From Lyngbya sp. HA4199-MV5 (lineage in GTDB: Bacteria > Cyanobacteriota > Cyanobacteriia > Leptolyngbyales > Leptolyngbyaceae): a stretch of DNA of 42,880 nt. A program made the translations under genes and the position numbers. Below, in pieces: positions 1,058 through 42,773 of the stretch. Each line of letters opens with the position of its first letter. The stretch's first letter is position 1. The DNA lies in the NCBI GenBank assembly GCA_019359375.1, contig JAHHHL010000052.1, forward strand, positions 1 to 42,880. Direction: 5' to 3'. A model generated the notes under the pieces. The model was not told the origin of the DNA, ran no database searches, and saw nothing but the letters and a program-made list of their open reading frames with translations.

Positions 1058-1267
1058 ATGTCTAAAAACGAACCTGCGAAAGCAGCGGCAGCGGCTGGTG
1101 TTGGAGCGGCGGCTGGCTATGGTGCTGTGGCAGCAACAGGTATGAGTGCGATCGGTATGATTGGTGGTGGCGCAGGTTTCGGGGCTGCTGCTGGACCCGC
1201 TGGCGTTGCTGTTGGAGCATTAGCGGGTCTAGCTGCTTATGGTATTTACCGAGCTACTAAAGGATAA
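1058..1267 (+). CDS. Small Gly/Ala-rich hydrophobic protein, possible exported peptide
   Basis: 69 residues with a short charged start (MSKNEPAKA) and then an almost purely Gly/Ala/Val body with glycine-zipper spacing (GMIGGGAGFGAAAGPAGVAV), ending in a basic tail (YRATKG). A good ribosome binding site (AAGGAG) sits 7 bases before ATG 1058. The sequence could form one or two membrane helices. It is the first of three hydrophobic small proteins followed by a one-chain ABC exporter on the same strand, an arrangement reminiscent of bacteriocin or membrane-active peptide loci. There is no cysteine and no classical signal peptide; the GGG run could in principle be a double-glycine cleavage site, but that is speculation. 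I do not recognise a named family. Confidence 0.7.
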   Translation: MSKNEPAKAAAAAGVGAAAGYGAVAATGMSAIGMIGGGAGFGAAAGPAGVAVGALAGLAAYGIYRATKG

Positions 1268-1298
1268 ATAGTTTTAACCAACACACCTTTATTCTTAA

Positions 1299-1339
1299 AG
1301 CGATCGCTTCTTCACATTTTAGGAAAAGAGGCGATCGCT
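1299..1339. other. Hairpin formed by two facing HIP1 sites
   Basis: AGCGATCGC-TTCTT pairs with AAGAG-GCGATCGCT across a loop of about 13 bases. It lies between the first and second small-protein genes. It has no T-tract, so it is more likely an mRNA processing or attenuation structure, or simply a HIP1 pair, than a factor-independent terminator. Confidence 0.4.
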
Positions 1340-1439
1340 CAATATGTTCAGTCATACGTTATTGCCCAGATCGTTGTGGGCAAACTAAATTAGGCTGCGC
1401 TGAGGCAATTTGCTCCATTTTCGCCAGGTTTTTCCACTC

Positions 1440-1964
1440 ATGCAGTTTCTATCAGAACAATTCGACAACCGGACTAAGTTTCTGGCAGGGTTTCTGGTAT
1501 GGACACTTTGCTTAGGGCTGACGACATTAAGTGTTCAGCACTCATGCAATCCAATGATTGGTTCGCCGTCTCCAGAATGCGGGGCAATTGTCCAAAAAAG
1601 TGATGGCGCGAAGACCTCTGATAGCAATAAACAACAAAAAGAAAGGAAAAACCATCCAAGTAAGACGAATCACCCATTACCAGATCCACCCACGAAGGAA
1701 AAATCAGGAGATTCAAAACCTCCTTCTAAGCCTGTCCAGAAAACTACTTCACCGAAATGTGGCAAAAGTTTTATTCCTATTGTCGCTGGGGCTGGGAGTG
1801 CTGCTGCTGCTGGAGCAGGTGCTTCCGCTTTGGCGAGTGCAGGCGTGATTTCAGCCACCATAACCGTTGGCAGTGCCGTGATCGCAGCACCTGTTACGAT
1901 GGCAGTTGCTGCTGGGATATTGGTGTTCCTGGCAGTTAGAAGTTTGACAGGTGGAACCTGTTGA
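1440..1964 (+). CDS. Membrane-anchored protein with a charged linker and Gly/Ala-rich C-terminal segment
   Basis: 174 residues from ATG 1440; an upstream TTG at 1410 in the same frame would add 10 residues. There is an N-terminal membrane segment (FLAGFLVWTLCLGLTTL), then about 70 polar, Lys/Pro/Ser-rich residues, then a long Gly/Ala/Val region (roughly residues 108-168) with glycine-zipper character, ending LTGGTC. Four cysteines (HSCN, PECG, PKCG and the C-terminal Cys) could form disulfides if the linker is exported. Its hydrophobic tail resembles that of the preceding 69-residue protein, and it stands 45 bases before the third small hydrophobic gene, so all three probably belong to one function. 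No named family recognised. Confidence 0.65.
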   Translation: MQFLSEQFDNRTKFLAGFLVWTLCLGLTTLSVQHSCNPMIGSPSPECGAIVQKSDGAKTSDSNKQQKERKNHPSKTNHPLPDPPTKEKSGDSKPPSKPVQKTTSPKCGKSFIPIVAGAGSAAAAGAGASALASAGVISATITVGSAVIAAPVTMAVAAGILVFLAVRSLTGGTC

Positions 1965-2009
1965 GTTGGCATCATAGTTTGTAGATGTTTAGCGGAGAAA
2001 ATACTAATT

Positions 2010-2315
2010 ATGGAATCTCAATCTGAATCTAAGACTCATTGGTTGAAACAACCCTTAATCAAAGGATTGGCTGTTGGGCTATTGTCTATTGTTGGAATTG
2101 CTTTCACTCTTCTGATTACACGCGGTAGTCAATTTTGTATTCTGACAATCGCCAGTTGTAGTAGTCGAACTGGTTCTTCTGCTGGTGCTGAGTTGCTGTC
2201 GATCGGAGCAGCGGCGGCGGCGGCGGCTGTTTTAGTAGTTGTGGTTGAAGTGCCTGTGATTGTGGCAGTTGGTATTGCCATTGTGATCGGATTGATTTCT
2301 GGTCAACTTTTTTAG
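2010..2315 (+). CDS. Small two-helix hydrophobic protein
   Basis: 101 residues. A polar start (MESQSESKTHW) precedes membrane helix 1 (LAVGLLSIVGIAFTLLI), a short Cys/Ser loop (FCILTIASCSSRTGSS) and a long Ala/Val helix region (residues ~64-98, with a run of seven alanines). GGAGAA lies upstream of ATG 2010. It is the third consecutive hydrophobic small protein before the ABC transporter gene, which starts 28 bases downstream. It could be an exported peptide, an immunity protein or an exporter subunit; the sequence does not decide. Confidence 0.65.
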   Translation: MESQSESKTHWLKQPLIKGLAVGLLSIVGIAFTLLITRGSQFCILTIASCSSRTGSSAGAELLSIGAAAAAAAVLVVVVEVPVIVAVGIAIVIGLISGQLF

Positions 2316-2329
2316 TTAACACAACAATG

Positions 2330-2343
2330 AATGTTGCAACATT
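2330..2343. promoter_or_regulatory. 14 bp perfect palindrome abutting the ABC gene start
   Basis: AATGTTGCAACATT directly precedes ATG 2344. A six-codon minicistron (ATG 2327, MNVATL) runs through it and ends in an ATGA overlap with the ABC start. It could be an operator or a translational-coupling leader. Confidence 0.4.
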
Positions 2344-3762
2344 ATGATTGAGTTACACAGTATCTCAAAAAGCTTTGAACAGCGTGAAGTGCTGAGTGAT
2401 ATTAGCCTGACGATTCAGCCTGGTGAGGTTGTTGTTCTGAAGGGGGAGAACGGTTCGGGAAAAACGACTCTACTCAATATTATTTTGGGCATCCTGAAAC
2501 CCGATCGAGGAAACGTAAAGCTGTGTGGATGCTCACCGAAAGATTCAGACTCTAAAGCTCGTGTGGGTGTCATGCTCCAAAAAGTAGAGGTTCCCAAAAA
2601 TTTAAGGGTTAGTGAACTAATCAGCTTGATCCGAAGCTACTACCCCAATCCTCTGTCAACAGAAGAAATTCTTGATAAGGTTGGACTTCAGGAAAAGAGC
2701 AGTTTCTGGTGCTCTAAGTTATCTGGTGGAGAAAGAAAACGGCTTGATCTTGGCATTGCCCTTGCAGGTAATCCCAAACTTCTGATCCTAGATGAGCCAA
2801 CTGTTGGTTTAGACGAAAAAGGGCGCAAAGAGTTTTGGCAGACTTTGAGGCTTTGTGTTGTTAAGGGTGTAGCGGTAGTGATTGTCACGCACAACCCTGC
2901 CGACTGGCAAGAGCTTGAAACAATTGCAACGCGATCTATAATGCTCCAGGAAGGTCGGTTATTAGAAGATCAGCTCCTGAAAGGTAGTGCGGAAAGTGAC
3001 CAAAGAAATTACGCCATCACACAAGAGCAACCCTCTGTGAACCAGTCGCAAAAGTGGTCAGAGATGTTGATGGCTCAGATTCGAGTAGAATTACTTCAAC
3101 TGGTTCGGACTCCGATATACTTGCTCGGAATTGTGATTTTTTGTGTCATTACGTCTCTTATCTCCAGTCCACAGTATGGCGCATTAGGCTTGGTCTTTTG
3201 TGGAGGACTGGCTGTACTGACTTTTGCCATTGAGCGGGTTGGTAAACAAATTGCGCTTGAACGGGTTGAAGGTTGGCTGAAATTATTGCGCGTAACATCG
3301 CTACAACCGACGGCTTATCTTAGCGCGAAGTTAGCGGTTTCCTTATTAATTCTGGCAGTTATACTCATACTGGTTCTTGCTATCAGTGCTTCAAGAATTG
3401 GTGGTGCCGTTACGTTTGGAAATCAGATTTTTCTATTCATCAGCTTATTGATTGGGGTAATTCCATTTGCTATTGCAGGGTCAGCAATGGGCTATCTGGT
3501 CAAACCTAAGAGCCTTGATCAAATTGCTGGTATTTCGATTCCCGTTGCTTTACTCACCTGCGGTTTATCTATTCCCTGGTTGCCTAAAGATATAATTGTA
3601 CTCTCTCCTTTTTATCACTATGCTCAGCTTGCTCTCTGGTCAATTGGTTCAGAGCACTACGACCATCATTTATGGCTGAACTTACTCTGGCTACTGACCG
3701 CTGGAGGTGTTTTTAGTACTCTGGCAATCTGGGCATATCAGCGTGATGAAGTCGTTCAGTAG
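2344..3762 (+). CDS. ABC exporter, ATPase and ABC-2-type permease in one chain
   Basis: 472 residues. The N-terminal ATPase has Walker A GENGSGKT (34-41), signature LSGGE (126-130), Walker B LLILDE (146-151) and the H-loop His in VTHN (~183). From about residue 245 there are roughly six membrane helices, starting QLVRTPIYLLGIVIFCVI and ending LLWLLTAGGVFSTLAIWAY, in the style of ABC-2 permeases such as heme- or bacteriocin-export permeases. Most relatives have separate ATPase and permease genes; here they are fused, giving a dimeric full transporter. The gene follows three small hydrophobic proteins, so a peptide substrate is plausible. The following 2TM gene starts 36 bases after the stop and is likely co-transcribed. 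Confidence 0.85.
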   Translation: MIELHSISKSFEQREVLSDISLTIQPGEVVVLKGENGSGKTTLLNIILGILKPDRGNVKLCGCSPKDSDSKARVGVMLQKVEVPKNLRVSELISLIRSYYPNPLSTEEILDKVGLQEKSSFWCSKLSGGERKRLDLGIALAGNPKLLILDEPTVGLDEKGRKEFWQTLRLCVVKGVAVVIVTHNPADWQELETIATRSIMLQEGRLLEDQLLKGSAESDQRNYAITQEQPSVNQSQKWSEMLMAQIRVELLQLVRTPIYLLGIVIFCVITSLISSPQYGALGLVFCGGLAVLTFAIERVGKQIALERVEGWLKLLRVTSLQPTAYLSAKLAVSLLILAVILILVLAISASRIGGAVTFGNQIFLFISLLIGVIPFAIAGSAMGYLVKPKSLDQIAGISIPVALLTCGLSIPWLPKDIIVLSPFYHYAQLALWSIGSEHYDHHLWLNLLWLLTAGGVFSTLAIWAYQRDEVVQ

Positions 3763-3798
3763 TAGTGACAGTGCTTGACTAAAAAAGGGAAGGCGGGT

Positions 3799-4281
3799 AT
3801 GTCTGATTCGTACAATCAGGAAGCAGTACAAGAAATTCTTGCGATCGCGATGACCCGTCCCTCCCAAAATGATAATTTTTCAAGAGCGCAACTTCTCGAA
3901 ATTGCAGAGGAGTTAGGTATTTCCCATGAGGACTGCTCGCTTGCGGAACAAGAGTGGGAGCGACGCTGTAAGCAACAGACTGCTTATCAAGCCTTTGATG
4001 ATTATCGTTATACAAAGTTGCAGCAAAGCACTGCAAAATACTTGATTAATAATACCTTCTTGCTAGGGTTGGATTTAATTACAGATCAAGCAATTACTTG
4101 GTCACTCTATATTATTTTCAGTTGGGGACTTGTCTTAGCTCTGAATGTTTGGAGAACCTACCAGATCAAAGGTGCCAACTACGAAAAAGCGTTTCAGCAA
4201 TGGAAAATGAAACAACAAGTTAATCAATCAATCAAGAGCCTATTAGATAAAGGGCTGAGAAGATTACAAGCAATGGAATAG
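3799..4281 (+). CDS. 2TM-domain protein downstream of the ABC exporter
   Basis: 160 residues from ATG 3799, chosen because GGAAGGCGGG lies just before it; an in-frame TTG at 3775 would add 8 residues. The N-terminal half is polar and acidic, with a helix containing LLEIAEELGISHED, which resembles a short DNA-binding or SHOCT-like helical repeat. Two membrane helices follow (about residues 84-100, NTFLLGLDLITDQAI, and 103-120, YIIFSWGLVLALNVW), then a basic amphipathic tail. This matches the general plan of 2TM-domain proteins in cyanobacteria. Its place at the end of the exporter locus suggests an accessory or immunity role, an inference only. Confidence 0.65.
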   Translation: MSDSYNQEAVQEILAIAMTRPSQNDNFSRAQLLEIAEELGISHEDCSLAEQEWERRCKQQTAYQAFDDYRYTKLQQSTAKYLINNTFLLGLDLITDQAITWSLYIIFSWGLVLALNVWRTYQIKGANYEKAFQQWKMKQQVNQSIKSLLDKGLRRLQAME

Positions 4282-4462
4282 CGTTAGGTTTTTTCTGATC
4301 GAACAACAACCCAAGCGCTTGAAAACGCTCTTCAGCCGTCTTTTTGCCATTAGTGCTTTTGGCGATCCTCGTTCCGAGAGGCTTCGCCAACGCGTCCAAT
4401 TTAGTTGTTGTATCTGTTAAATTTGCAGCAGTGATCGCCTCTTCTGGTGTTAGCCATTTCAT
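4232..4462 (-). CDS. Small unknown protein interrupted by a dispersed repeat (doubtful)
   Basis: 76 codons. MKWLTPEEAITAANLTDTTT then TRIAKSTNGKKTAEERFQA looks protein-like, and the two parts are separated by residues LDALAKPLG encoded by the repeat at 4374-4394, as if the repeat had inserted in frame. The 3' end overlaps the convergent 2TM gene by 50 bases, and no strong ribosome binding site is visible. It may be a remnant rather than a working gene. Confidence 0.3.
   Translation of the reverse strand: MKWLTPEEAITAANLTDTTTKLDALAKPLGTRIAKSTNGKKTAEERFQALGLLFDQKKPNAIPLLVIFSALYLIGS
4374..4394. repeat. Small dispersed repeat
   Basis: CCGAGAGGCTTCGCCAACGC plus G; same core as the copy at 269-290. 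Inside the small minus-strand frame 4232-4462, adding residues without a stop. Confidence 0.7.
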
Positions 4463-4565
4463 AGCAGAGACAAATTAATGGTCTAGCTGACATGGCGGTA
4501 GCCAGGACAATGCAAAAACTAGCCAGCAGCAGAGACGCATCCTTGCTGCTGGCTGACGAAAGGGT

Positions 4566-4924
4566 TTATTGCTCTGCCAAAAGTGAGTTTTTGAAGTCCT
4601 GAATCGCCGTAGCGGTTAGTGCATAAATGACACGCCGCCTGCGTTCGATATGGGTGCCATCGACCGGAACGCCTCTTTTCCAGGCAGCAATGATCGCTTT
4701 CTTGTCGGCAGCGTAAGTGAATTTCTTTTTGCGGAACTCAGCTGGCAAGTCTTCTGCATCCACCAGTAGCTCACAACTGGGAGGATTGCTTCGATGTCTG
4801 CCAAAATCATCAGAGTGCCTGGATTAATGTCTTCTGAGGATTGCTCGGATTCAAGAGATAAATCAGAATGGGTGATTGTCAGTGGTACTGAGTGATTCGT
4901 AGAACTGGTTGTCAGAGTTTGCAT
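4566..4924 (-). pseudogene. Frameshifted small plasmid protein, C-terminus similar to Gp157-type proteins
   Basis: Two overlapping minus-strand frames complement each other. The first starts at 4924 (MQTLTTSSTNHS) and runs to about LADIEAILP. The second carries CELLVDAEDLPAEFRKKK, DKKAIIAAWKRGVPVDG and ERRRRVIYALTATA to the stop at 4566. The switch point is near 4775-4785, so a one- or two-base change has split one gene of about 120 codons. The DLP.EF....DKKAI..A.K.G..V.G..(E)RR pattern resembles the end of siphovirus Gp157-like proteins, but this is a weak similarity seen by eye. A base-level error in the sequence is an alternative. Confidence 0.4.
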
Positions 4925-4984
4925 AAGGGGTAGCCTTGATCACGCTGTATGAACCAGCGCGATAGCGCACTACCTCTGTGCCAT

Positions 4985-5401
4985 TTACTTGAGCAGTCGA
5001 ATGAATCCAGCCTGCTCAAAGTGGCGATCACTGGTTAATGCATGACTTATGTTCTGTTGTTGCATGATGGCAAAGCTAGAGCAATCGACCAGACTCCAAG
5101 CTTTATCTGGACGGGCTTCCAACAACTTCCATGCAGTCAAATCCAGATCTGAATCGATATGCAAAACTTCAACTGCGGGAGAATCTTTAAGACTTTTGAG
5201 GAATGCGATCGCCTGTACACGAGGAATTCGCAAGGGGCTTTCCAAAAGTGCAACTAACTCCGCTAGAACATAATTGCTCGTGATTAAGCCAGCGGGTTGT
5301 TGTTTGGTGTTGCGATACCAATCCGTAGCGAGAGCATGATAGGGCTGGCTGACATCGATCAAATTGCCCCATCCCGATGTATCGACGAATAGCTTGGACA
5401 T
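4985..5401 (-). CDS. PIN-domain ribonuclease toxin (VapC-like)
   Basis: 138 residues. It has the four acidic positions of PIN nucleases: D7 in LFVDTSGW, E48 in YVLAELVAL, D106 in SLVDCSSFAIM and D125 in ALTSDRHF. Such proteins are Mg-dependent RNases held inactive by the cognate antitoxin. The start ATG overlaps the antitoxin stop (TAATG), so translation is coupled and antitoxin is made first, the usual order for vapBC pairs. Length is normal for the family and the gene looks intact. On a plasmid it would act in maintenance. Confidence 0.85.
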   Translation of the reverse strand: MSKLFVDTSGWGNLIDVSQPYHALATDWYRNTKQQPAGLITSNYVLAELVALLESPLRIPRVQAIAFLKSLKDSPAVEVLHIDSDLDLTAWKLLEARPDKAWSLVDCSSFAIMQQQNISHALTSDRHFEQAGFIRLLK

Positions 5402-5646
5402 TAGGGCTGGTCATGGGTTTCTAGAAGGGTGGCACCGAGATATTCATCGTGTCGGCTGCTCCAATCTGGAATTTCACTCTTAAATGCTCCGATGAAGGAG
5501 TCAAGCGGATCTGAGTTTTGGGTTTGGTGTTGGGTTACAATCCATTGGCTGACGATCGCTTCGGGAGATTGTCCTAAGCGTTCGGCGGTTTGGAGCAAGG
5601 TCTGATAAATCTCGTCGGGGATCTCGATCGATAGGGTTTTAGACAT
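5401..5646 (-). CDS. Antitoxin of the PIN-domain toxin
   Basis: 81 residues from ATG 5646, preferred over TTG 5652 because AGGT lies at a suitable distance. The N-terminal part (TLSIEIPDEIYQTLLQTAERLGQSPEAIVSQWI) has a beta-strand followed by two helices, typical of ribbon-helix-helix DNA-binding antitoxins. The acidic C-terminal part (SFIGAFKSEIPDWSSRHDEYLG) is the likely toxin-binding region; D-x-Y-L-G endings are common in cyanobacterial antitoxins of this kind. It probably represses its own promoter. The stop overlaps the toxin start. Confidence 0.8.
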   Translation of the reverse strand: MSKTLSIEIPDEIYQTLLQTAERLGQSPEAIVSQWIVTQHQTQNSDPLDSFIGAFKSEIPDWSSRHDEYLGATLLETHDQP

Positions 5647-5742
5647 TGGCAAGACCTGAATCTGATGGCTTCATTTTGATTTTATGGCGTTTTACTCAAG
5701 TTGTGATCCTCGCTGCTGCTAACTATTTTGCAACAGGTATAA

Positions 5743-6027
5743 TCACACATTATCCTGCTGTAGAATCGTCAGAGCGTTTTGGATGAGTGGCAACGTGTCG
5801 TCGTCAGCAACAGGTACAAGTCGATAAATCCGAGTATTTTGGGTGGTGTAACCAAAGTCTTCAATCAACGAGGCAACTAGCTCCACTGCACGCTGAAGCG
5901 TACCGTAGGTGTGGGGTTTTTCTGTTGGCAAGATGGGATAGAAAGTCTCCTGTTCTGGCCACGGTAAAGGTTCATCGACCTTAACCACTACGAAGGTTGG
6001 AGGATTTGAGTTTAGTAATTCAGACAT
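5743..6027 (-). CDS. Hypothetical protein
   Basis: 94 residues from ATG 6027; GGAG stands 6 bases before it, so it is preferred over ATG 6039. Contains FVVVKVDEPLPWPEQETFYP and a helical segment (TLQRAVELVASLIEDFGY) followed by RIYRLVP. No membrane segment or recognised motif. It lies 120 bases after the PP-loop gene on the same strand and before the toxin-antitoxin pair, so it may be the last gene of the PP-loop operon. Function unknown. Confidence 0.6.
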   Translation of the reverse strand: MSELLNSNPPTFVVVKVDEPLPWPEQETFYPILPTEKPHTYGTLQRAVELVASLIEDFGYTTQNTRIYRLVPVADDDTLPLIQNALTILQQDNV

Positions 6028-8043: not shown

Positions 8044-9402
8044 CTAACGAGCGCTAACCTTTCTGGTCTGAGTACGTCGGCTCCTATGCTTGTGAGAGTG
8101 CCATTGACTTACACTCCTCAGAATGGAGTCGAGGGTACGACTGGCGAAGGCAGGGGTTTTGTTAGCACTTTGCCAGATGGTATTGGCTTCCATATTACTC
8201 AAGGGAGGTGTGCAGCGATCGCAGTATTGCTTAAAGAGTTGATGGGGATTTGGATGGTAAACGATCCGATGTCGGGTTAGTAGATCAGCGGTTCCCAATA
8301 GGTTCCGAGCCAGCTTGTAGCCTGCGTTGTTACGGTTACCTTCCAGTTCACCGTATTTTAAGAGCGCGCGATCGCTTTTTGTCAGGCAAACAGTCAGCGG
8401 AATCGATATCCCGCTAACGCGGTGTTGTTTGAGAGACAAGTGCTTGTCTCTTTTTGCAGTGCTTGTTCTAACTCTCCGATGCTTTAGCACTGTTGAGCGA
8501 GACCCTGGAACAGGTGGTTGAGTCAATGCGGAGTGTGGGTCAACAGAATCATTCATTTTCGCCAGATGAATGAGTTGTACCCACTTCCGCCATCGCTGAT
8601 CCGATAATCCGTAAGGAAACAGCCCGGTAGAATCCAGAGCAGCTTCCAGAATTTCAGGATCGTATCGGAACTTGGAGTAACTTTCTAATGTGGTTGCTCT
8701 AGCACCTCCCAACCCTCCATCAACTACTTCCCTGCGAACCATACCTGGGAGTCGCATCGAACGTGCCAGATTGCAGATCGAGGGGTCAGCGTTTTGAGCG
8801 TTCGCGCTAGCGTTCCGCCCCACGGAAATCGCCAGCTTTCGATTCAGGCAGATCCAGTTTTCTGGAGATAGCCCAATGGTGCATCTAAAATATACATGCA
8901 GGGACTTTCCCCCGGTGTACACAACTGCTGCTGGTTCCAATCCCGTTGCATGCTTAAATTCTTCCAATACAATGTATTGACTCGCCAAAGGCAAATCATC
9001 AATTTCATAGAACAAGCACTGGCATTGCCTGACATGGCTGTTGCTAATCCCTTTATCAGGCTGGTTGGGGTAGAAACTAACCGTTGCACCCAAATAGGAA
9101 AACTTGAATGCAAGTGCCCATCCATCTGCATAGCGTTTGGGTGTGAGCTGCCAGCAGATATTACCCTGGCGATCGCGCCCACCCTGAGTGCAGCAATAGA
9201 GGGTAAAGCCCTGGGGAGTGATGCTGCCACAAAAAATGTAATGACTGTAGATCAGTTGATTGTTCTTCCAGTAACAGTTCCAGTTGTCAGGAATAATTTC
9301 TACAGGCAGATCCCAGGAAATTCGTAACCAAATTTTAGCACCCGACACAAAGCCAATGTGCCTGAGAAATTGAATTGTCATTTGTCGCAGATTGACATTC
9401 AT
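8044..9402 (-). CDS. Plasmid primase/replication protein of the archaeo-eukaryotic primase type
   Basis: 452 residues. CLFYEIDDLPL (EIDD at 133-136) gives the metal-binding acidic pair, and VVYTGGKSLHVYFR (162-174) is the second AEP signature with the basic/His positions. The C-terminal part (LARNLLGTADL, LFKQYCDRCTPPLSNMEANTIWQSA) resembles a primase C-terminal helical domain. It would make primers for plasmid replication. It lies 54 bases after the relaxase gene on the same strand. Two stretches look like dispersed-repeat insertions: RNASANAQNA (near 8796-8817) and the region of a 9 bp-arm hairpin at 8432-8451 (AGAGACAAG ... CTTGTCTCT). The frame is open throughout. Confidence 0.75.
   Translation of the reverse strand: MNVNLRQMTIQFLRHIGFVSGAKIWLRISWDLPVEIIPDNWNCYWKNNQLIYSHYIFCGSITPQGFTLYCCTQGGRDRQGNICWQLTPKRYADGWALAFKFSYLGATVSFYPNQPDKGISNSHVRQCQCLFYEIDDLPLASQYIVLEEFKHATGLEPAAVVYTGGKSLHVYFRCTIGLSPENWICLNRKLAISVGRNASANAQNADPSICNLARSMRLPGMVRREVVDGGLGGARATTLESYSKFRYDPEILEAALDSTGLFPYGLSDQRWRKWVQLIHLAKMNDSVDPHSALTQPPVPGSRSTVLKHRRVRTSTAKRDKHLSLKQHRVSGISIPLTVCLTKSDRALLKYGELEGNRNNAGYKLARNLLGTADLLTRHRIVYHPNPHQLFKQYCDRCTPPLSNMEANTIWQSANKTPAFASRTLDSILRSVSQWHSHKHRSRRTQTRKVSAR
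8432..8451. repeat. Perfect 9 bp-arm hairpin within the primase gene
   Basis: AGAGACAAG-TG-CTTGTCTCT followed by four more T on the plus strand. The T-run is on the antisense side, so it would not terminate primase transcription. It may be another small palindromic insertion. Confidence 0.45.
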
Positions 9403-9456: not shown

Positions 9457-10395
9457 TCAAAGTTCTAACTCTCGTTGTCGGTGTTTTGATAATTTGGATT
9501 TTTGGCGATGTTTCGCTGCATTATCATCTTGTTGGCTCTCCTTTATATTCGATACCTGCACTAACAAGTCTGCATCGATTCCACTGGTAGTTGATGAATT
9601 AACAGGTTGTTCTACCAGTTTTTTAATTAATTCCGCATCTCGATGTGAGTCATAGTTCACTTCTCGGTATCTCTGCAAGCCTTGGAAGGTATAGGCTTTG
9701 CCCAGATGAGTTCCGCTAAAGGCAATACCATTTAATTCGTAGCTGATGCCTGTTATCTCACCAGGTTGGCGATCGCGAATCCGAACACTGATGCCGTTTT
9801 GCTGGAGCTGCCCAATGAGCTGAGGCATAGTGATAGGAGATTGAGTGGCTTGATCAAGCGATCGCTGAAGCTGCACTCGAATACTTGCCGCGCCAGTCCG
9901 CGCCAGTAAGCGCTGTTCTCCAGTAGTGAGGCTACGGCTGTCTTGTTTTTGGCTGGAGTGGAGCGATCGCAACCCATAGTCCTGCTCCAACTGGCGAATA
10001 GCGGCTTCACTCCGGCGATAATCCCAGCTATCGGAAACGGTTATTCCATTCAGCCGAACCCGACTGGCGACAATATGTACATGATCATGGTCGCGATCGC
10101 TATGCCGCACAACGACATACTGATTCATGTCAAAGCCCATTGCCTGAAGATATTTCTGGGCAATTTCGTGCCAGGTGTCATTCTCCAGATGCTCAGTATG
10201 GGGCAAACTTAGGGAGGCGTGGTAGACCGATCGACTCACCCTAGGGTTTAACTGTCGGCAAAATCGGAACTCCGCTGCTAACCCACGCGGGGTTATTTCC
10301 TCCATATTGCTGCCAATTAAGCTGGCTCCATCTTTGCCAAACAGATAATTGAGCAATTTGCTGAAGCTCCGACCTTTGATTTGTTTGCCGATCAC
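9457..10395 (-). CDS. Relaxase / mobilization nuclease (MobA/VirD2-type)
   Basis: 312 residues. The N-terminal motif GRSFSKLLNYLFG supplies a candidate nicking tyrosine (Y17). The metal-binding motif RHSDRDHDHVHIVASR (H98, H103, H105, H107) is the HxDxxHxHxH pattern of the relaxase family. The middle (PMTMPQLIGQLQQNGISVRI region, ~185-235) resembles the DNA-binding tail seen in cyanobacterial plasmid relaxases. It would nick oriT and pilot the strand during conjugative transfer. Its start overlaps the stop of the MobC-like gene by 4 bases. The coupling protein at 34.8-36.3 kb could be the partner for transfer. Confidence 0.87.
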   Translation of the reverse strand: MIGKQIKGRSFSKLLNYLFGKDGASLIGSNMEEITPRGLAAEFRFCRQLNPRVSRSVYHASLSLPHTEHLENDTWHEIAQKYLQAMGFDMNQYVVVRHSDRDHDHVHIVASRVRLNGITVSDSWDYRRSEAAIRQLEQDYGLRSLHSSQKQDSRSLTTGEQRLLARTGAASIRVQLQRSLDQATQSPITMPQLIGQLQQNGISVRIRDRQPGEITGISYELNGIAFSGTHLGKAYTFQGLQRYREVNYDSHRDAELIKKLVEQPVNSSTTSGIDADLLVQVSNIKESQQDDNAAKHRQKSKLSKHRQRELEL

Positions 10396-10778
10396 GATTC
10401 CTCTTCAATCTCTGTCATGAATTCTAGGTCAGTCAGTTCTCGCCGTATTTGGCTCAAGAGACTTCTGGTTTGATTCAACAACTCCTGATCGACCACGATC
10501 GGAGTTGCTTGAAGTGGCGCAGTGGTATTGGCGCTAGCCTTTGCGTTAGCAAGTATCGCCTTAGCAATTTGATTCAGGCTGTCACTGATTCTGGTGAGTT
10601 CCCAGTAGGTCAGACCTGCGATTCGGGTTACGCGCCGGGGGAGCTGATTTTTCAACGTCTTGGCACGAAACAATTCTGCCATCGTCAGGTTGTTCTCTGC
10701 CGCCATACAGCGTACCTGCTCTTTCTCCTCAGCGTTGAGGGAGATATGGAACTTGATGGGACGTTTCTGGGAAGACAT
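10392..10778 (-). CDS. MobC-like relaxosome accessory protein
   Basis: 128 residues from ATG 10778; a TTG at 10787 is an alternative start. The N-terminus (KRPIKFHISLNAEEKEQVRC, then NNLTMAELFRAKTL) is a ribbon-helix-helix-like DNA-binding segment. The later part (TYWELTRISDSLNQIAKAI, then LLSQIRRELTDLEF) matches the helical region of MobC-family accessory proteins that help the relaxase open oriT. A dispersed repeat at 10530-10553 adds the residues LANAKASA in frame. The stop overlaps the relaxase start (ATGA), so the two are translationally coupled. Confidence 0.78.
   Translation of the reverse strand: MSSQKRPIKFHISLNAEEKEQVRCMAAENNLTMAELFRAKTLKNQLPRRVTRIAGLTYWELTRISDSLNQIAKAILANAKASANTTAPLQATPIVVDQELLNQTRSLLSQIRRELTDLEFMTEIEEES
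10530..10553. repeat. 24 bp dispersed repeat inside the MobC-like gene
   Basis: GCGCTAGCCTTTGCGTTAGC core, a Nhe-type variant (GCTAGC...GTTAGC) of the dispersed repeats. Length is a multiple of three and the frame stays open. Confidence 0.55.
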
Positions 10779-18725: not shown

Positions 18726-19943
18726 GTGTGTACTAAAAAGCTCACGGCTCAGGTAGGGATTACCGTACTTTTGCTAGAAACCTACGTTCAACTGCCTCTG
18801 GAACTGCAACCGTTTATTCCCTTGCTGTCTCATGCAATGCCCGATCGCCAGCAGGTAGAAGCGATCGTGACTCAGTTCTGTAACCAGCATTCCTGGCTTG
18901 GCAAGGATGATGCTGAGCTTCAACAGCGATTGAGCACGGTTTGTCAGGGGTTGCCAGTGGGTGAGATTGAAATGGTGCTGGGCAGGCTGCTGACGTTTGC
19001 GGATTCTTCGGAGCAATTGATTCAATTGATTCTGGATCATAAAATTAACAAGCTGCGAGGGCGGGGGTTGGAGTACATTGCAGAACCAGACGTGCCCACG
19101 GCTGCCGGATTGGATTTGTTGGAGCGACGGTTGGAGGCGATCGCTGCTCTGCTTCGACCTGAAGCTCAACAGTATGGGCTGAGCTTACCCATGGGGATGG
19201 TGCTGTGGGGACCACCCGGCACAGGTAAAAGTCTCTCTGCCAAACTGGCGGCTAAGAAGATGGGGTTGCCTTTGTTGGCGGCAAATTGGGGCATTCTCTT
19301 GAGTAGCCCAAACCCCGATCGCGCTTTGAAGGAATTCATTGCGGTGGTCACGTCTCTGGCTTCTTGTGTCCTCTATTGGGATGACTTTGACAAGGGTTTT
19401 GCAGGCTGGGACTCGAATGCTGATGGTGGGATCGCCCGTCGTCTGTCGGCGGCTTTGCTGACCTGGATGCAGGAACACCAGGAACCGATCTACACGATCG
19501 CGACTGTCAATCGTTTAGGGCTGCTACCACCTGAATTAGTACGGCGTTTCGAGGACATCTTCTTCGTGGATTTGCCGCATGAAGGAGCCAGATATGAAGT
19601 GTTCAATCTACATCTGGCAAAGTACTTCCCAGCATTTCGAGGGAATAGTCAATCGCCCTGGACAGAAGACCAATGGCGCAGGCTATTGACAGAGTACCGA
19701 ATTTGCACCCCTGCTGAGATTGGGAATGCAGTGCGGCGTTGTGCAGAGGAAGCGTTTTACCAGGGTAGACCAGGGCAGATTGAACTGGAGGATTTGTTGG
19801 GGCAGCGACAGCAGTTTACCTCAGCGATGGAGCGGGAATCTGAGCAGATGCAGGCAATTCGGAATCAAGCAACCTATGCGAGACCTGCCAGTGGGGGCGA
19901 TCGATCGAGGTTTGCTTACATTCATCGAGAGTTGTTTGATTAA
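18726..19943 (+). CDS. Ycf46-type AAA ATPase, N-terminus probably shortened
   Basis: 405 residues from GTG 18726. Walker A GPPGTGKS (162-169), Walker B VLYWDDFD (215-222), and the later PPELVRRFEDIFFVDLP segment are characteristic of AAA proteins of the cyanobacterial Ycf46 group. In that group the AAA domain follows an N-terminal region containing segments like TVLLLETYVQLPLELQPFIP and LSHAMPDRQQ, seen here right at the start (residues 13-41). The frame is open upstream only to 18678, so the first ~80-90 residues of the usual protein are missing or replaced. The substrate of the family is unclear; chloroplast and cyanobacterial members are linked to photosynthesis regulation. Divergent from the zinc-ribbon gene. 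Confidence 0.75.
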   Translation: MCTKKLTAQVGITVLLLETYVQLPLELQPFIPLLSHAMPDRQQVEAIVTQFCNQHSWLGKDDAELQQRLSTVCQGLPVGEIEMVLGRLLTFADSSEQLIQLILDHKINKLRGRGLEYIAEPDVPTAAGLDLLERRLEAIAALLRPEAQQYGLSLPMGMVLWGPPGTGKSLSAKLAAKKMGLPLLAANWGILLSSPNPDRALKEFIAVVTSLASCVLYWDDFDKGFAGWDSNADGGIARRLSAALLTWMQEHQEPIYTIATVNRLGLLPPELVRRFEDIFFVDLPHEGARYEVFNLHLAKYFPAFRGNSQSPWTEDQWRRLLTEYRICTPAEIGNAVRRCAEEAFYQGRPGQIELEDLLGQRQQFTSAMERESEQMQAIRNQATYARPASGGDRSRFAYIHRELFD

Positions 19944-34774: not shown

Positions 34775-36295
34775 ATGTCTCTCCCCTTGCCGACCCATTG
34801 GAACTCCCTTTCTGGCAGTAAAAGCCCTACCAGTAAAAGCCCTACATCGACTGCTTTGATGCAGGTGCCGTCCTATTCCCAACCATTGGCAGCGATCGAC
34901 TTTGGCAAAATGTTTCAGCAATACAACAATCCCCAGGGCTGGATGATGCTGGGTGGGTTGGTGGTCGTATTATTGCTGCTCCGCATCAGTGGATCGAGTA
35001 AGGGCAAAATTACTACGGGCAAACTGTGTGGCACAGCGGAGAAACTCGCTGCAACCAGCCTGTCACTCAAACAGATTCGGGAACGCAAACACAACAAAGT
35101 AACGCTTTGGTCTGGCACACCTCGTTATTGGGCAAAAGGAGCATGGCGCGGGGTAATGACAACAATACAAACCACATTGGGAGCATCCCCAACGGTTTGG
35201 TTTCCCAGTTCTGAACGAGGTACATTGGTCATTGGCGCTCCTGGTTCTGGAAAAACGTACTCCACAATCGACCGAATGCTGGAAAGTGCTATGCAACAGG
35301 GCTTTCCCATTCTGCTCTACGACAAAAAGGGTGATCAGATGCGCCTCCACGCACCCCTGGCAGCGCGTTATGGGTATCAGGTCAGAGTCTTTGCACCGGG
35401 AGAAGCCTTCAGTGGCGTGATTAACCCGTTGGATTACATGCGGGATGCGCGAGATGGCGTAATGGCAGGGGAAATCGGTAAAGTCATTAATCGCAACGCT
35501 AGAGAGGGTGATGGCGGGCGGAGCGATGAATTCTTCACCAAGGCAGGAGACTTGCTGGCAAAGGCATTGCTGCAACTGGTCAAGGGTTCCCGTTATCCCG
35601 ATATGGCAATGCTCTACGCCGTGTTGCGCCTGCCTAACTTGGTGCATCGAATCGATTATGCGGTGCAATCCAAACAGTTGGATGAATGGGTTGCTACCTC
35701 TTTTGTACAGTTCCTTAGCGCGAAGGACGCTGAAAAAACCATCTCTGGTATCCTAACGACCGCCGCAGGCACCTTTTCATCGTTCATTCAAGCAGACCTG
35801 CTCCGAGCCTTTATTGGCAAATCCACGATTCCAACTCGCTTGGAAGGACGGGAAATCGTAGTATTCAAGTTGGATGATGAGCGTCGCAGTGTGGTGGGTC
35901 CGTTGCTGGCTGCTGCGATTCACCTGATGATTGTGGGCAATCTCAGCACACCCCGCAAAGACCCGCTGATTATCTCTCTAGACGAGTTGTCCTCGATCAA
36001 GCTCGACCGCCTGCCCCAATGGATTAACGAATACCGTTCCAATGGAGCCTGCTTCATCCTGGGCATTCAAAGTTTGGATCAACTCTATGACATCTATGGG
36101 GACAAGATGGGTGCAGCGACCCTTGCGGTAACGGCAAAGCCGCGCGCCTCTGCTTGTAGCACCCACGTCCTGTTCAATCCCGGCAATCATAAAACGGCTG
36201 AGGACTACTCAAAACGGTACGGTGAAAAAGAAGTGCTGATCAAAAATCGAACGACGGGGCGGTCTATAAAGCTAAAGCAAGAACTCTCATCTTGA
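34775..36295 (+). CDS. VirD4/TraD-type type IV coupling protein, C-terminus short
   Basis: 506 residues. A membrane segment (GWMMLGGLVVVLLLLRI, ~55-71), Walker A GAPGSGKT (154-161), Walker B LIISLDE (399-405), and the later ILGIQSLDQLYDIYGD and STHVLFNPGNHKTAEDYSKR segments are those of VirD4/TraG coupling ATPases, which bring the relaxosome to the secretion channel. A 24 bp repeat (36125-36148) adds VTAKPRAS in frame. The tandem KSPTSKSPTS arises from a 15 bp direct repeat (34818-34847). After NRTTGRSIKLK the family usually continues for 60 or more residues, so the 3' end is probably cut by the block carrying the R-M genes. Confidence 0.8.
   Translation: MSLPLPTHWNSLSGSKSPTSKSPTSTALMQVPSYSQPLAAIDFGKMFQQYNNPQGWMMLGGLVVVLLLLRISGSSKGKITTGKLCGTAEKLAATSLSLKQIRERKHNKVTLWSGTPRYWAKGAWRGVMTTIQTTLGASPTVWFPSSERGTLVIGAPGSGKTYSTIDRMLESAMQQGFPILLYDKKGDQMRLHAPLAARYGYQVRVFAPGEAFSGVINPLDYMRDARDGVMAGEIGKVINRNAREGDGGRSDEFFTKAGDLLAKALLQLVKGSRYPDMAMLYAVLRLPNLVHRIDYAVQSKQLDEWVATSFVQFLSAKDAEKTISGILTTAAGTFSSFIQADLLRAFIGKSTIPTRLEGREIVVFKLDDERRSVVGPLLAAAIHLMIVGNLSTPRKDPLIISLDELSSIKLDRLPQWINEYRSNGACFILGIQSLDQLYDIYGDKMGAATLAVTAKPRASACSTHVLFNPGNHKTAEDYSKRYGEKEVLIKNRTTGRSIKLKQELSS
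36125..36148. repeat. 24 bp dispersed repeat within the coupling-protein gene
   Basis: GCGGTAACGGCAAAGCCGCG core. Eight codons inserted between AATLA and SACST without loss of frame. Confidence 0.55.
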
Positions 36296-40511: not shown

Positions 40512-42773
40512 CTAGAGGTCATCAATGAAATATGTTCCATTCGGCACGACATGCCTGAAGGGCAGCAGAGAAATGTGAGATAGGGTTTCATCCTCAATCA
40601 TCTCCCCTTGTGCCCTCAGGCTTTCGACGATTTCGTTGATCTTGATGGTATTCCAGTAAAGGATGGCATTGGAAACCAGGCTCAAGCAGCTGGCCTTGTT
40701 CATAATTTCCTCGTAATCCCCCGTCGTAAACTCACCCTGATCAGCAAAGAAAACCCGACGTGGCAGCTTGTGCCGGTATTCCCCTTTGTTGAGTTGGCGT
40801 TGCACTGTCTGCCGCAGACTGGGCTCGGTGAGATAGCGCAAGATATATTGAGTCTTGAGGATACGACCAAGATTGGTAAATGCCTTAGACAGCCGGTCAG
40901 CGGGGAAACTATTGGTGAGCCTCTGAACAATCACATTTGCAGGTGCTGTGCGTTGCTTGAGGGAAAGGGCCACCCGAATCATCTCCTCCCACTGTTCCTC
41001 AATAATGTTGAGATCAGCCGTTTTCGTTAGCAAGGGCGTGAAAACCCCATAATCATGGTTTCGATCGACTTTATAAAGCTGCTGGTCCTTCAAATCCCGG
41101 ATACGTGGCATGAAATAGAAGCCCAATAAGTGACACAGTGCAAAGATGATTTCGGTGTAGCCATGGGTGTCCGTCGTATGCTCGCGGATTCTGAGGATCG
41201 TGTTGTTTTCCAGCAGCCCATCCAGGACATACAAAGCTTCACGAGGACTGCAGGAAATCACCTTGGTACTGAAGACTGAGTATTGATCAGAGACATGGGT
41301 GTAGATGCCAATCGCCTTTTCGTAATAGCCGTAGTAGCGCGGGTAATAGGAGGTCAACAGACTACTGGCGCGAATACCAAAGCGTTGCGCGTCCGATGAT
41401 GAAAGCGTTCCAGACCCGTGTACGGCACTCAAGGGTAGTGCGTGATGTCGGTTCACAAGTTCGGTATTGGCTGCCGTTAAGGTCTCCTCCCGGATGAAGT
41501 AATGCAAAATGCGGCGGAGCATATTGATCGAGGTTCCTTTCACACTGGCACTCATAGAGACCACCCCAAGGTTGGTTGCTTGAGAAATCAAAGTCGCCAT
41601 GAGAGTTCTGTAGAAATGCGCTGGCTTGGACTCGCCTTGGATCGGCGTAAAGTGGTGGGTGAAGTGTGTGCGTTGGTCAACCTCCAGCAACAGCTGTTCA
41701 ATCCGGATCGAGGGCAAGCAGGCATCAATCACCTTTTGCAAGTTGGCAACGGCATCTGGTACAGCCACTTTGTCGTAGCGCCTCAACTTGAGCTTGCCAT
41801 CGACAATCTCAGCAAAATTGTCGAACGGAAATTTCTCCTTTGCCTGGGCGATCGCCTCGTGGAACCGTTGGGGGAGAACAGTTTTGACCTCGTGTTGGGG
41901 TGGCTGTTGCAGTTCCTCAAACGAGGATATGCGGATCTGCTGCCAGCGGGTCTCACTGAGCATTAAGTTCCAAAACGAGACATGGTGTTTACTTTGAGGC
42001 AAATAGAGATCACCAGAGCGCAACGCATCCTTGATCGCTAAAGCCAGCCCCGCTTCCCAGGCATTGCGATTCAGGGTTCCAGCCTGATTTTTGAGCGCAC
42101 GCCGCAACTCTTGAGGGACAAAAGCTGCTGGTGCCGTTTGGGGTAGTTTTTTGAGGTTGCCGGAATCCAGTTGCCGCACCAGCCCGATGGCTTCTATCAA
42201 GTCGTCATTGCCATGCTCGGCAGCAAAGGGGAGGTGAATGAATTGAGCAAAGTACTTCCGCAAACTGGGGTAACGGGCTAAGAGCAAATCCCCGTAGCCC
42301 CTTTCTTCAAGACGTTTAAATGCTTGCAGGTTCTCCAGAGAGCTACGAAATTCATCCTCGTCCACCAATTGCCAAAATTCTGCCTTTAACAGGGGTTGCT
42401 CTGGAGGCCAATCCAGCAGGTAGTGATTAGCCTCCAGCACGATATCAACCGCCTTCTTCTGTCGCTGACGCAATTCGCGGTGCTTTTGTTCGTAGCGATT
42501 CTTGGCTTTGCGGCACAGATCCGTGAGGTATTGGTCATGCATCTTGACCAGGTGATCCAGTAAAACCTGACGAGTCTCTAGCAGAAAGCACGCCATGAGG
42601 GTGTAGCGCTTGTGGTCAGCAAACCGCTTGATATCCGTGGCACTGTAGCGTTTTGCCAGCTTAAACCAATAGTCGAGAAAAGCCGGGGTCAACATTTGCC
42701 CTGCAAAATGATCGATACCTGTTGCTGTAACAGTTTTGTAGCGTTCCAGATAGGTGTAGCGACCTGCAATCAT
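40512..42773 (-). CDS. tnpA: Tn3-family transposase, N-terminally truncated
   Basis: 753 residues against about 1000 in the family. The Tn3 catalytic block is present: LLLEVDQRTHFTHHF (first Asp), LGVVSMSASVKG, IYTHVSDQYSVFSTKVI (second Asp) with PREALYVLDGLL, and HTTDTHGYTEIIFALCHLLG (Glu) with PRIRDLKDQQ. The C-terminal end (ADQGEFTTGDYEEIMNKASC, then LVSNAILYWNT) is complete. The start MIAGRYTYLERYK corresponds to a point ~200 residues inside the usual protein, so the DUF4158-type N-terminal domain is gone; a TGA stands three codons upstream. It is probably not active alone. Confidence 0.8.
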   Translation of the reverse strand: MIAGRYTYLERYKTVTATGIDHFAGQMLTPAFLDYWFKLAKRYSATDIKRFADHKRYTLMACFLLETRQVLLDHLVKMHDQYLTDLCRKAKNRYEQKHRELRQRQKKAVDIVLEANHYLLDWPPEQPLLKAEFWQLVDEDEFRSSLENLQAFKRLEERGYGDLLLARYPSLRKYFAQFIHLPFAAEHGNDDLIEAIGLVRQLDSGNLKKLPQTAPAAFVPQELRRALKNQAGTLNRNAWEAGLALAIKDALRSGDLYLPQSKHHVSFWNLMLSETRWQQIRISSFEELQQPPQHEVKTVLPQRFHEAIAQAKEKFPFDNFAEIVDGKLKLRRYDKVAVPDAVANLQKVIDACLPSIRIEQLLLEVDQRTHFTHHFTPIQGESKPAHFYRTLMATLISQATNLGVVSMSASVKGTSINMLRRILHYFIREETLTAANTELVNRHHALPLSAVHGSGTLSSSDAQRFGIRASSLLTSYYPRYYGYYEKAIGIYTHVSDQYSVFSTKVISCSPREALYVLDGLLENNTILRIREHTTDTHGYTEIIFALCHLLGFYFMPRIRDLKDQQLYKVDRNHDYGVFTPLLTKTADLNIIEEQWEEMIRVALSLKQRTAPANVIVQRLTNSFPADRLSKAFTNLGRILKTQYILRYLTEPSLRQTVQRQLNKGEYRHKLPRRVFFADQGEFTTGDYEEIMNKASCLSLVSNAILYWNTIKINEIVESLRAQGEMIEDETLSHISLLPFRHVVPNGTYFIDDL

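Follow-up and report, generated by a model that had tools for sequence, protein, structure and literature searches.

A stretch of 42,880 nucleotides from the cyanobacterium Lyngbya sp. HA4199-MV5 (hereafter the window, meaning the whole stretch analysed), a contig of a 6.9-Mb genome, carries near its start a run of five genes. Three of them recur together in cyanobacteria: two small membrane proteins, A (174 amino acids) and B (101 amino acids), and a fused ATP-binding cassette (ABC) ATPase/permease of 472 amino acids, here called ABC. The features of the locus, all on the forward strand, are the following.

1058-1267, +: 69-amino-acid glycine-zipper protein; a neighbour here and in Leptolyngbya ULC077bin1 (ULC077), outside the conserved cassette
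1299-1339, +: RNA hairpin of two inverted GCGATCGC sites, with no T run, between the 69-residue gene and A
1440-1964, +: A, 174 amino acids from ATG (184 if the TTG at 1410 is used)
2010-2315, +: B, 101-amino-acid membrane protein with a transmembrane (TM) segment, C-x6-C and a hydrophobic hairpin
2344-3762, +: ABC, 472 amino acids; ATPase at about residues 1-215, ABC-2 permease at about 240-472
3799-4281, +: 2TM-domain protein, 160 amino acids from ATG; a close neighbour here and in ULC077, outside the conserved cassette

All five frames lie where the original prediction had placed them. Comparison with ULC077bin1 (sequences from loci L099 and L043) gives ratios of non-synonymous to synonymous substitution rates (dN/dS, no significance test) of 0.10 for the 69-residue protein, 0.41 for A, 0.41 for B and 0.17 for ABC. 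The 2TM protein gives 0.32 over the 121 of its 160 residues that could be aligned, and its ULC077 frame holds a stop. With these ratios between 0.10 and 0.41, the five frames evolve as proteins and are more than open reading frames. A and B are separated by 45 bases and B and ABC by 28, against 172 bases between the 69-residue gene and A. Folding of positions 1262-1440 reveals a strong hairpin (z = -3.5 relative to shuffled sequences), and this hairpin and the 172-base gap set the 69-residue gene apart from the tight A-B-ABC run. Promoter-like sites are about as frequent as expected (4 seen, 4.4 expected); terminator-like sites (9 seen, 3.4 expected) lie mostly within frames and were not used.

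As an exporter, ABC is of a known kind. Its N-terminal half matches the Pfam family PF00005 (2e-29) and its C-terminal half PF12698 (1.7e-6; 27.8 bits, under the cut-off of 31.6), and the window protein has a Walker A motif, an LSGGE signature, a DEPT sequence and an H-loop histidine. Walker A, signature and Walker B are thereby combined with an ABC-2 permease of sub-threshold score, as in ABC-2 type exporters, and the earlier assignment to an exporter family is borne out by the two domains in one chain and the motifs for ATP hydrolysis. The permease profile found no convincing solved structure in the PDB, its only match being CcmB (E = 1.3). A match of ABC to the mad3 model of PADLOC (3.3e-24) was taken as generic ATPase similarity.

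Surveys for relatives were queried with the permease half alone, which kept A and B from biasing the sample. The permease search matched 9 of 386 genomes of the phylum at 1e-5, and a permease profile 11 of 386 at 1e-8, the two additional ones being a decayed copy (G191) and weak matches in G032. Five of 42 genomes of the window's own family have a permease match. One genome per species, over 84,980 species, yielded 41 confirmed permease loci, and the plasmid records three matches: two cyanobacterial plasmids with the cassette and one from Deinococcus at 29% identity. Leave-one-out profiles of A and B were run on 32 cyanobacterial and 19 other permease loci. Among the 26 usable cyanobacterial loci, A was found in 23 by profile and in 24 by eye, and B in 25 by profile and in all 26 by eye, the A of L056 and the B of L028 being overlooked by profile; neither protein was found by profile beside the 19 non-cyanobacterial relatives (0/19). 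Left out of this count are L099 and L043, over which the ULC077 cassette is split on two contigs, L052 and L078, which run into a contig edge, L079, with an internal deletion, and the decayed L104. L045, L046, L049 and L058 duplicate the genomes of L021, L022, L023 and L026, so that each genome enters a single time, and L027 was scored as A-positive despite an interrupted A. Three further loci that enter no model (L132, L133 and L134) all carry A-B-ABC; in L133 the A N-terminal profile missed the protein, whose frame reads through the motif as QNSC.

Stand-alone profile searches for A and B covered cyanobacterial genomes. The A profile reaches E < 1e-6 in 9 of 244 genomes, each of which also has a permease match (one of them decayed), and matches eight further genomes weakly (E 0.001-0.009). 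The B profile matches 8 of 386 genomes at E < 1e-17, all of them exporter genomes, and four further genomes weakly (4.6e-4 to 0.01), and misses the divergent B of G187. Many of the positive genomes feed the models, and the informative part of these searches is the absence elsewhere. The three genes are co-inherited: distances among permeases correlate with those of B (Mantel r 0.89, 23 loci), the A N-terminus (0.73, 22 loci) and the A C-terminus (0.86, 21 loci), each with p 0.0005 from 2000 shuffles. A, B and ABC are a conserved three-gene cassette, and the five-gene locus is not one unit. The original prediction of an unnamed membrane system around the exporter survives for A and B, with strong matches only in exporter genomes and a place beside the permease in 23 and 25 of 26 loci in the profile search that it had proposed, and falls for the 69-residue and 2TM proteins, which are independent. 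Among the open-access full-text matches listed, nothing on the cassette was apparent by title or abstract start.

The same surveys bear on another account of the locus: ABC would serve ordinary efflux or self-protection and travel as plasmid cargo, and A and B would be small neighbours that play no active part. By sequence, the ATPase has its best PDB matches among ABCA lipid exporters, and the distribution is sporadic (9 of 386 genomes), both in keeping with that account. We regard it as very improbable, however, given that A and B go with this permease family and are not strongly found elsewhere in the cyanobacterial genomes searched.

A and B share an architecture. The window A has an N-terminal TM segment ending in a conserved QHSCxPxI motif, a variable Lys/Pro-rich linker and a C-terminal hydrophobic hairpin, with hydrophobic segments at residues 14-30 and 147-163. 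Both proteins have an N-terminal TM segment, with cysteines after it in most cases (for most B proteins, a C-x(4-7)-C pair), and a C-terminal hydrophobic hairpin, which by reading is Ala/Val-rich with an xP turn. The glycine-zipper or Ala-rich segments earlier ascribed to all three small proteins are present in A and B as Ala/Val-rich hairpins, whereas only the 69-residue protein reads as a true glycine zipper. A and B appear to be related to each other and not to the 69-residue protein, because B profiles also match A (in five loci of the 32-locus set and in two of L132-L134); hhalign of early A and B alignments gives a probability of only 53% (E 1.4e-4). AlphaFold predicts three helices for B (14-39, 58-79 and 83-100) and two for A, both with low confidence (predicted local distance difference test, pLDDT, of 58 and 54). 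The B proteins of L049, L051 and L053 lack the second of the extracytoplasmic cysteines behind the first TM segment and have one at the C-terminal end instead.

None of the three small window proteins has a match above the curated cut-offs of Pfam or NCBIfam. Across 18 B members, only two Pfam families fall below E 0.01 (best 0.0024), and no NCBIfam family does; A members match mainly intimin- and internalin-type NCBIfam proteins, as expected with immunoglobulin (Ig)-like repeats. A sub-threshold match of A to DUF1180 (E 0.0045, 17.9 of 27.7 bits) is not relied on. The membrane parts of A and the whole of B are unnamed in the libraries searched.

Between its membrane ends, A consists of a linker, of one to four bacterial Ig domains, or of a weakly LRV-like region, and its homologues reach 467 amino acids. 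Of the 19 A proteins scanned, 10 have Big_2 domains: four stretches in L024, L054, L055, L059, L060, L064 and L128, three in L056 and L057, and one in L063. None was found in A of the window, L025, L058, L127, L132, L134, L028, L029 or L104. L028 and L029 have a long middle region, with a sub-threshold LRV match in L029 only (E 0.023), and the decayed A of L104 matches LRV at E 0.0069. Big_2 domains are typically extracytoplasmic, which suggests that the middle of A faces outward.

This variability is concentrated in A. In the eight loci of a Geitlerinema-Phormidium group, A has 131, 140, 202 or 459 amino acids, while ABC is 80-97% and B 66-98% identical. The sharpest case is the comparison of L060 with L063: ABC is 96% and B 98% identical, the first 60 residues of A are 46% identical, and A has four Big_2 domains in L060 and one in L063. 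At the DNA level the two loci are 90-99% identical over the end of A, B and ABC, 66-79% over the stretch that comes before the end of A, and 40-44% at the A start and its leader. Loci with an upstream flank show a milder contrast, as in L024 and L063 (upstream gene 72%, A start 61%, A end 86%, ABC 89%). From these alignments, it looks as if the outer allele of A has been replaced on a conserved engine.

The polymorphism of A also enters the reading closest to the original prediction, in which A and B would be cargo: a two-component membrane-active weapon, displayed or released by a dedicated ABC exporter. The two proteins are small, hydrophobic and paired, stand in a tight run with the exporter, and evolve faster than it does (dN/dS 0.41 versus 0.17), and the cassette occurs on plasmids. 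Yet each is present in single copy, with no extra precursor-like gene noticed in the loci read, and an A of up to 467 amino acids with Ig domains speaks against an exported peptide. A and B keep, by reading, conserved N-terminal TM segments, and the Pfam and NCBIfam matches of the window proteins include neither a bacteriocin precursor nor a leader peptidase. In the Geitlerinema-Phormidium group B keeps pace with ABC, unlike the outer part of A, and two loci, L051 and L053, have lost A while keeping B and ABC. The idea of exported peptides is not upheld by these data, and cargo status for A and B is unlikely.

Because L051 and L053 hold B and ABC without A, B is suggested to be core with ABC. 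L049, the sister of L053 in the tree, has an A without the hairpin. The cassette is also found interrupted or decayed, as in G191. In L027 a transposase-like insertion (4112-5748) interrupts A but leaves B and ABC untouched. Transposase-like genes also come after A in ULC077bin1 (L099 6938-7767), where the B-ABC contig begins just before B (L043 1-100); an insertion element probably separates A from B-ABC there. A short frame of L079 (4896-5177) fuses the A start with the last part of the ABC permease, as would follow from either a deletion within the cassette or faulty assembly.

We favour the reading that A, B and ABC form one membrane complex, a half-size ABC-2 exporter with two small membrane subunits, and give it a probability of about 0.55. 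In such a complex, ABC would be the half-size exporter, with ATPase and permease in one chain and pairing as a homodimer to work. B would be a small, fixed, three-helix subunit that stays with the permease, and A a second, B-related subunit with its N-terminal helix and C-terminal hairpin in the membrane and its middle outward. Powered by ATP hydrolysis, the exporter would expel a hydrophobic or amphipathic substrate from the inner membrane, and the exchangeable outer part of A might hold or recognise something variable outside. We infer the physical association, the topology and the direction of export; what is exported, and that the cassette takes part in conflicts with phages or competitors, are guesses.

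Several observations weigh against such a complex. Exchangeable outer parts would equally fit a surface protein that merely shares the operon. The H-loop histidine is replaced by asparagine in 8 of 24 ABC proteins (L044-L050 and L053) and absent in one more; with this residue replaced or lost, activity may vary among ABCs. The ABC of L051 is split into two frames, leave-one-out profiles still train on close relatives, co-inheritance yields correlated distances in any operon, and the single-chain structure models are poor (pLDDT 58 and 54).

The two flanking genes of the window do not follow the cassette. The 69-residue protein has five homologues among 58 genomes, and only those of the window and ULC077 adjoin the cassette; the other three have no exporter within the 12 kb read around them. 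Its proposed partnership with the exporter fails on this 2 of 5, the original prediction itself having named homologues away from exporters as grounds for refutation. No match to it was found in plasmids, where the BLAST low-complexity filter may hide matches. Its family is small, separate and unnamed in the libraries searched; one homologue, at L101 5965-6210, has a basic N-terminal extension and adjoins a GTPase-like gene. A peptide trio of the 69-residue protein, A and B was rejected because the 69-residue family is independent and A and B go with the transporter. The 160-residue protein has a 2TM domain (PF13239, 2.6e-14), a family present in 19 of 58 related genomes. Twelve of these 19 were searched for the exporter and three have it (the window, ULC077, and G193 on another contig). 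The 2TM protein is not beside the other A-B-ABC loci read, and was rejected as a cassette member, its family being mostly found elsewhere.

The cassette is mobile. It is carried by Nostoc N6 pNPM4, typed as mobilizable, and by Aulosira NIES-50 plasmid1, typed as conjugative. Within the window's family, the nearest permease relative (88%) belongs to another genus, and two members of its own genus carry versions that are only 40-46% identical. The part of the article on the Nostoc N6 plasmids used here (PMC5987646) mentions neither ABC transporters nor bacteriocins. Viral carriage gave 58 pattern matches, none of which was confirmed. The window contig itself resembles a conjugative or mobilizable element (8044-42773), with these features:

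8044-9402: protein with relatives up to 65% identical on Nostoc plasmids
9457-10305: relaxase
10392-10778: NikA-like protein
34775-36295: type IV coupling protein
40512-42773: Tn3 transposase

Some cassettes lie among defence genes, in two genomes among those of the DISARM anti-phage system. The order in G388 is DrmD, a 560-residue protein, DrmMI, A, B, ABC, a DUF262-like protein (PADLOC Orf5), an MkoA-like protein, DrmA, DrmB and DrmC, with a few small frames between. G393 shares this gene set and order; there DrmMI occupies two frames, and small genes are interspersed. Its A frame (L133 6929-7789) carries an in-frame N-terminal extension 39% identical to the start of the adjacent 882-residue MkoA-like protein, which may be a fusion or a leftover that happens to be in frame with A. 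The Aulosira plasmid has the cassette beside DrmD-like, type IIG, DruE-like and HEC-05-like genes, and on pNPM4 beside NACHT proteins, including a NACHT NTPase, one of which matches PADLOC weakly and one not at all. An ATPase at 18837-19943 of the window matches IetA of PADLOC (1.9e-22), and a gene near L050 matches the HEAT-ARM model; two of three window proteins and the downstream gene of L055 have no defence match.

These surroundings, and an outer part of A whose polymorphism would suit a phage-facing surface, make a role in conflict or defence plausible. The specific proposal of an anti-phage or anti-plasmid module, or a DISARM-like add-on, in which the invader would be sensed or met by A, and B/ABC would act at the membrane or pump out a harmful product, is nevertheless doubtful. 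G388 and G393, both of the window's family, are a single lineage (ABC 91% identical), and DISARM is common (DrmB in 16 of 47 relatives, and in 1 of 14 control genomes), so that one insertion could be chance. Many chromosomal copies sit, by eye, amid housekeeping genes (mnmG-like; leucyl-tRNA synthetase, EcfT-like). The window genome has no DrmB match at 1e-20, none of the A and B proteins tested matched a PADLOC model, and no Drm family is among the best 25 of 54 PADLOC matches of the window ABC.

Returning to the membrane complex, a bolder extension can be offered tentatively, as possible but not probable: A-B-ABC would be an undescribed mobile conflict system of cyanobacteria, its outward Ig/linker module swapped like a polymorphic receptor or decoy, plasmid-borne and, where built into DISARM loci, serving as the arm of defence against phages or plasmids that acts at the membrane. 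What emerges is a compact transporter architecture that includes two unnamed families of small membrane proteins; in one of these families modules are swapped at the probable outer face, on an engine that hardly changes. Placement on plasmids and among DISARM genes connects an export machine, in a testable way, with conflicts over phages or plasmids in cyanobacteria.

Comparison with known systems places the cassette near several of them. Circular bacteriocin clusters include a SpoIIM/DUF95-type membrane protein, for which the five window proteins, the only ones scanned for it, gave no Pfam match. Two bacteriocin-related ATPase models of NCBIfam match ABC, as do many ATPase models, but with scores well short of the cut-offs (111 bits against 310 and 108 against 255). 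The 25 Pfam families listed for ABC at E <= 1 include neither a C39 peptidase nor a type I ABC membrane domain. By reading, A and B show no obvious double-glycine (GG) leader of the kind cleaved from bacteriocin precursors. The heme exporter CcmAB has small partners, CcmC and CcmD. ABC resembles it in that its ATPase scores 107.5 bits against the CcmA cut-off of 131.6 and CcmB is the sole PDB match of the permease profile; it differs in being one fused chain, the CcmB match (E = 1.3) is not significant, and CcmB is absent from the Pfam matches. According to the part of the article used here, the contact-dependent Cdz glycine-zipper bacteriocins of Caulobacter comprise two small Gly/Ala-rich proteins encoded with an exporter (PMC5380434). 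Two such proteins and an exporter are found here too, but both ends of A are membrane segments, and Ig domains can lie between them. With DISARM the likeness lies in position: two cassettes of one lineage, the only ones among the loci read that lie amid Drm genes, sit in DISARM loci, whereas A and B have no PADLOC match, the best 25 of 54 PADLOC matches of the window ABC include no Drm family, and most cassettes read lie elsewhere. The closest relatives in architecture are the fused ABC-2 exporters, with the same domain order, Walker A, signature and Walker B motifs and an ABC2_membrane_3-like permease; the cassette departs from them in its two small proteins: counting cases read by eye, all 26 usable cyanobacterial loci have B ahead of ABC, and 24 of the 26 have A.

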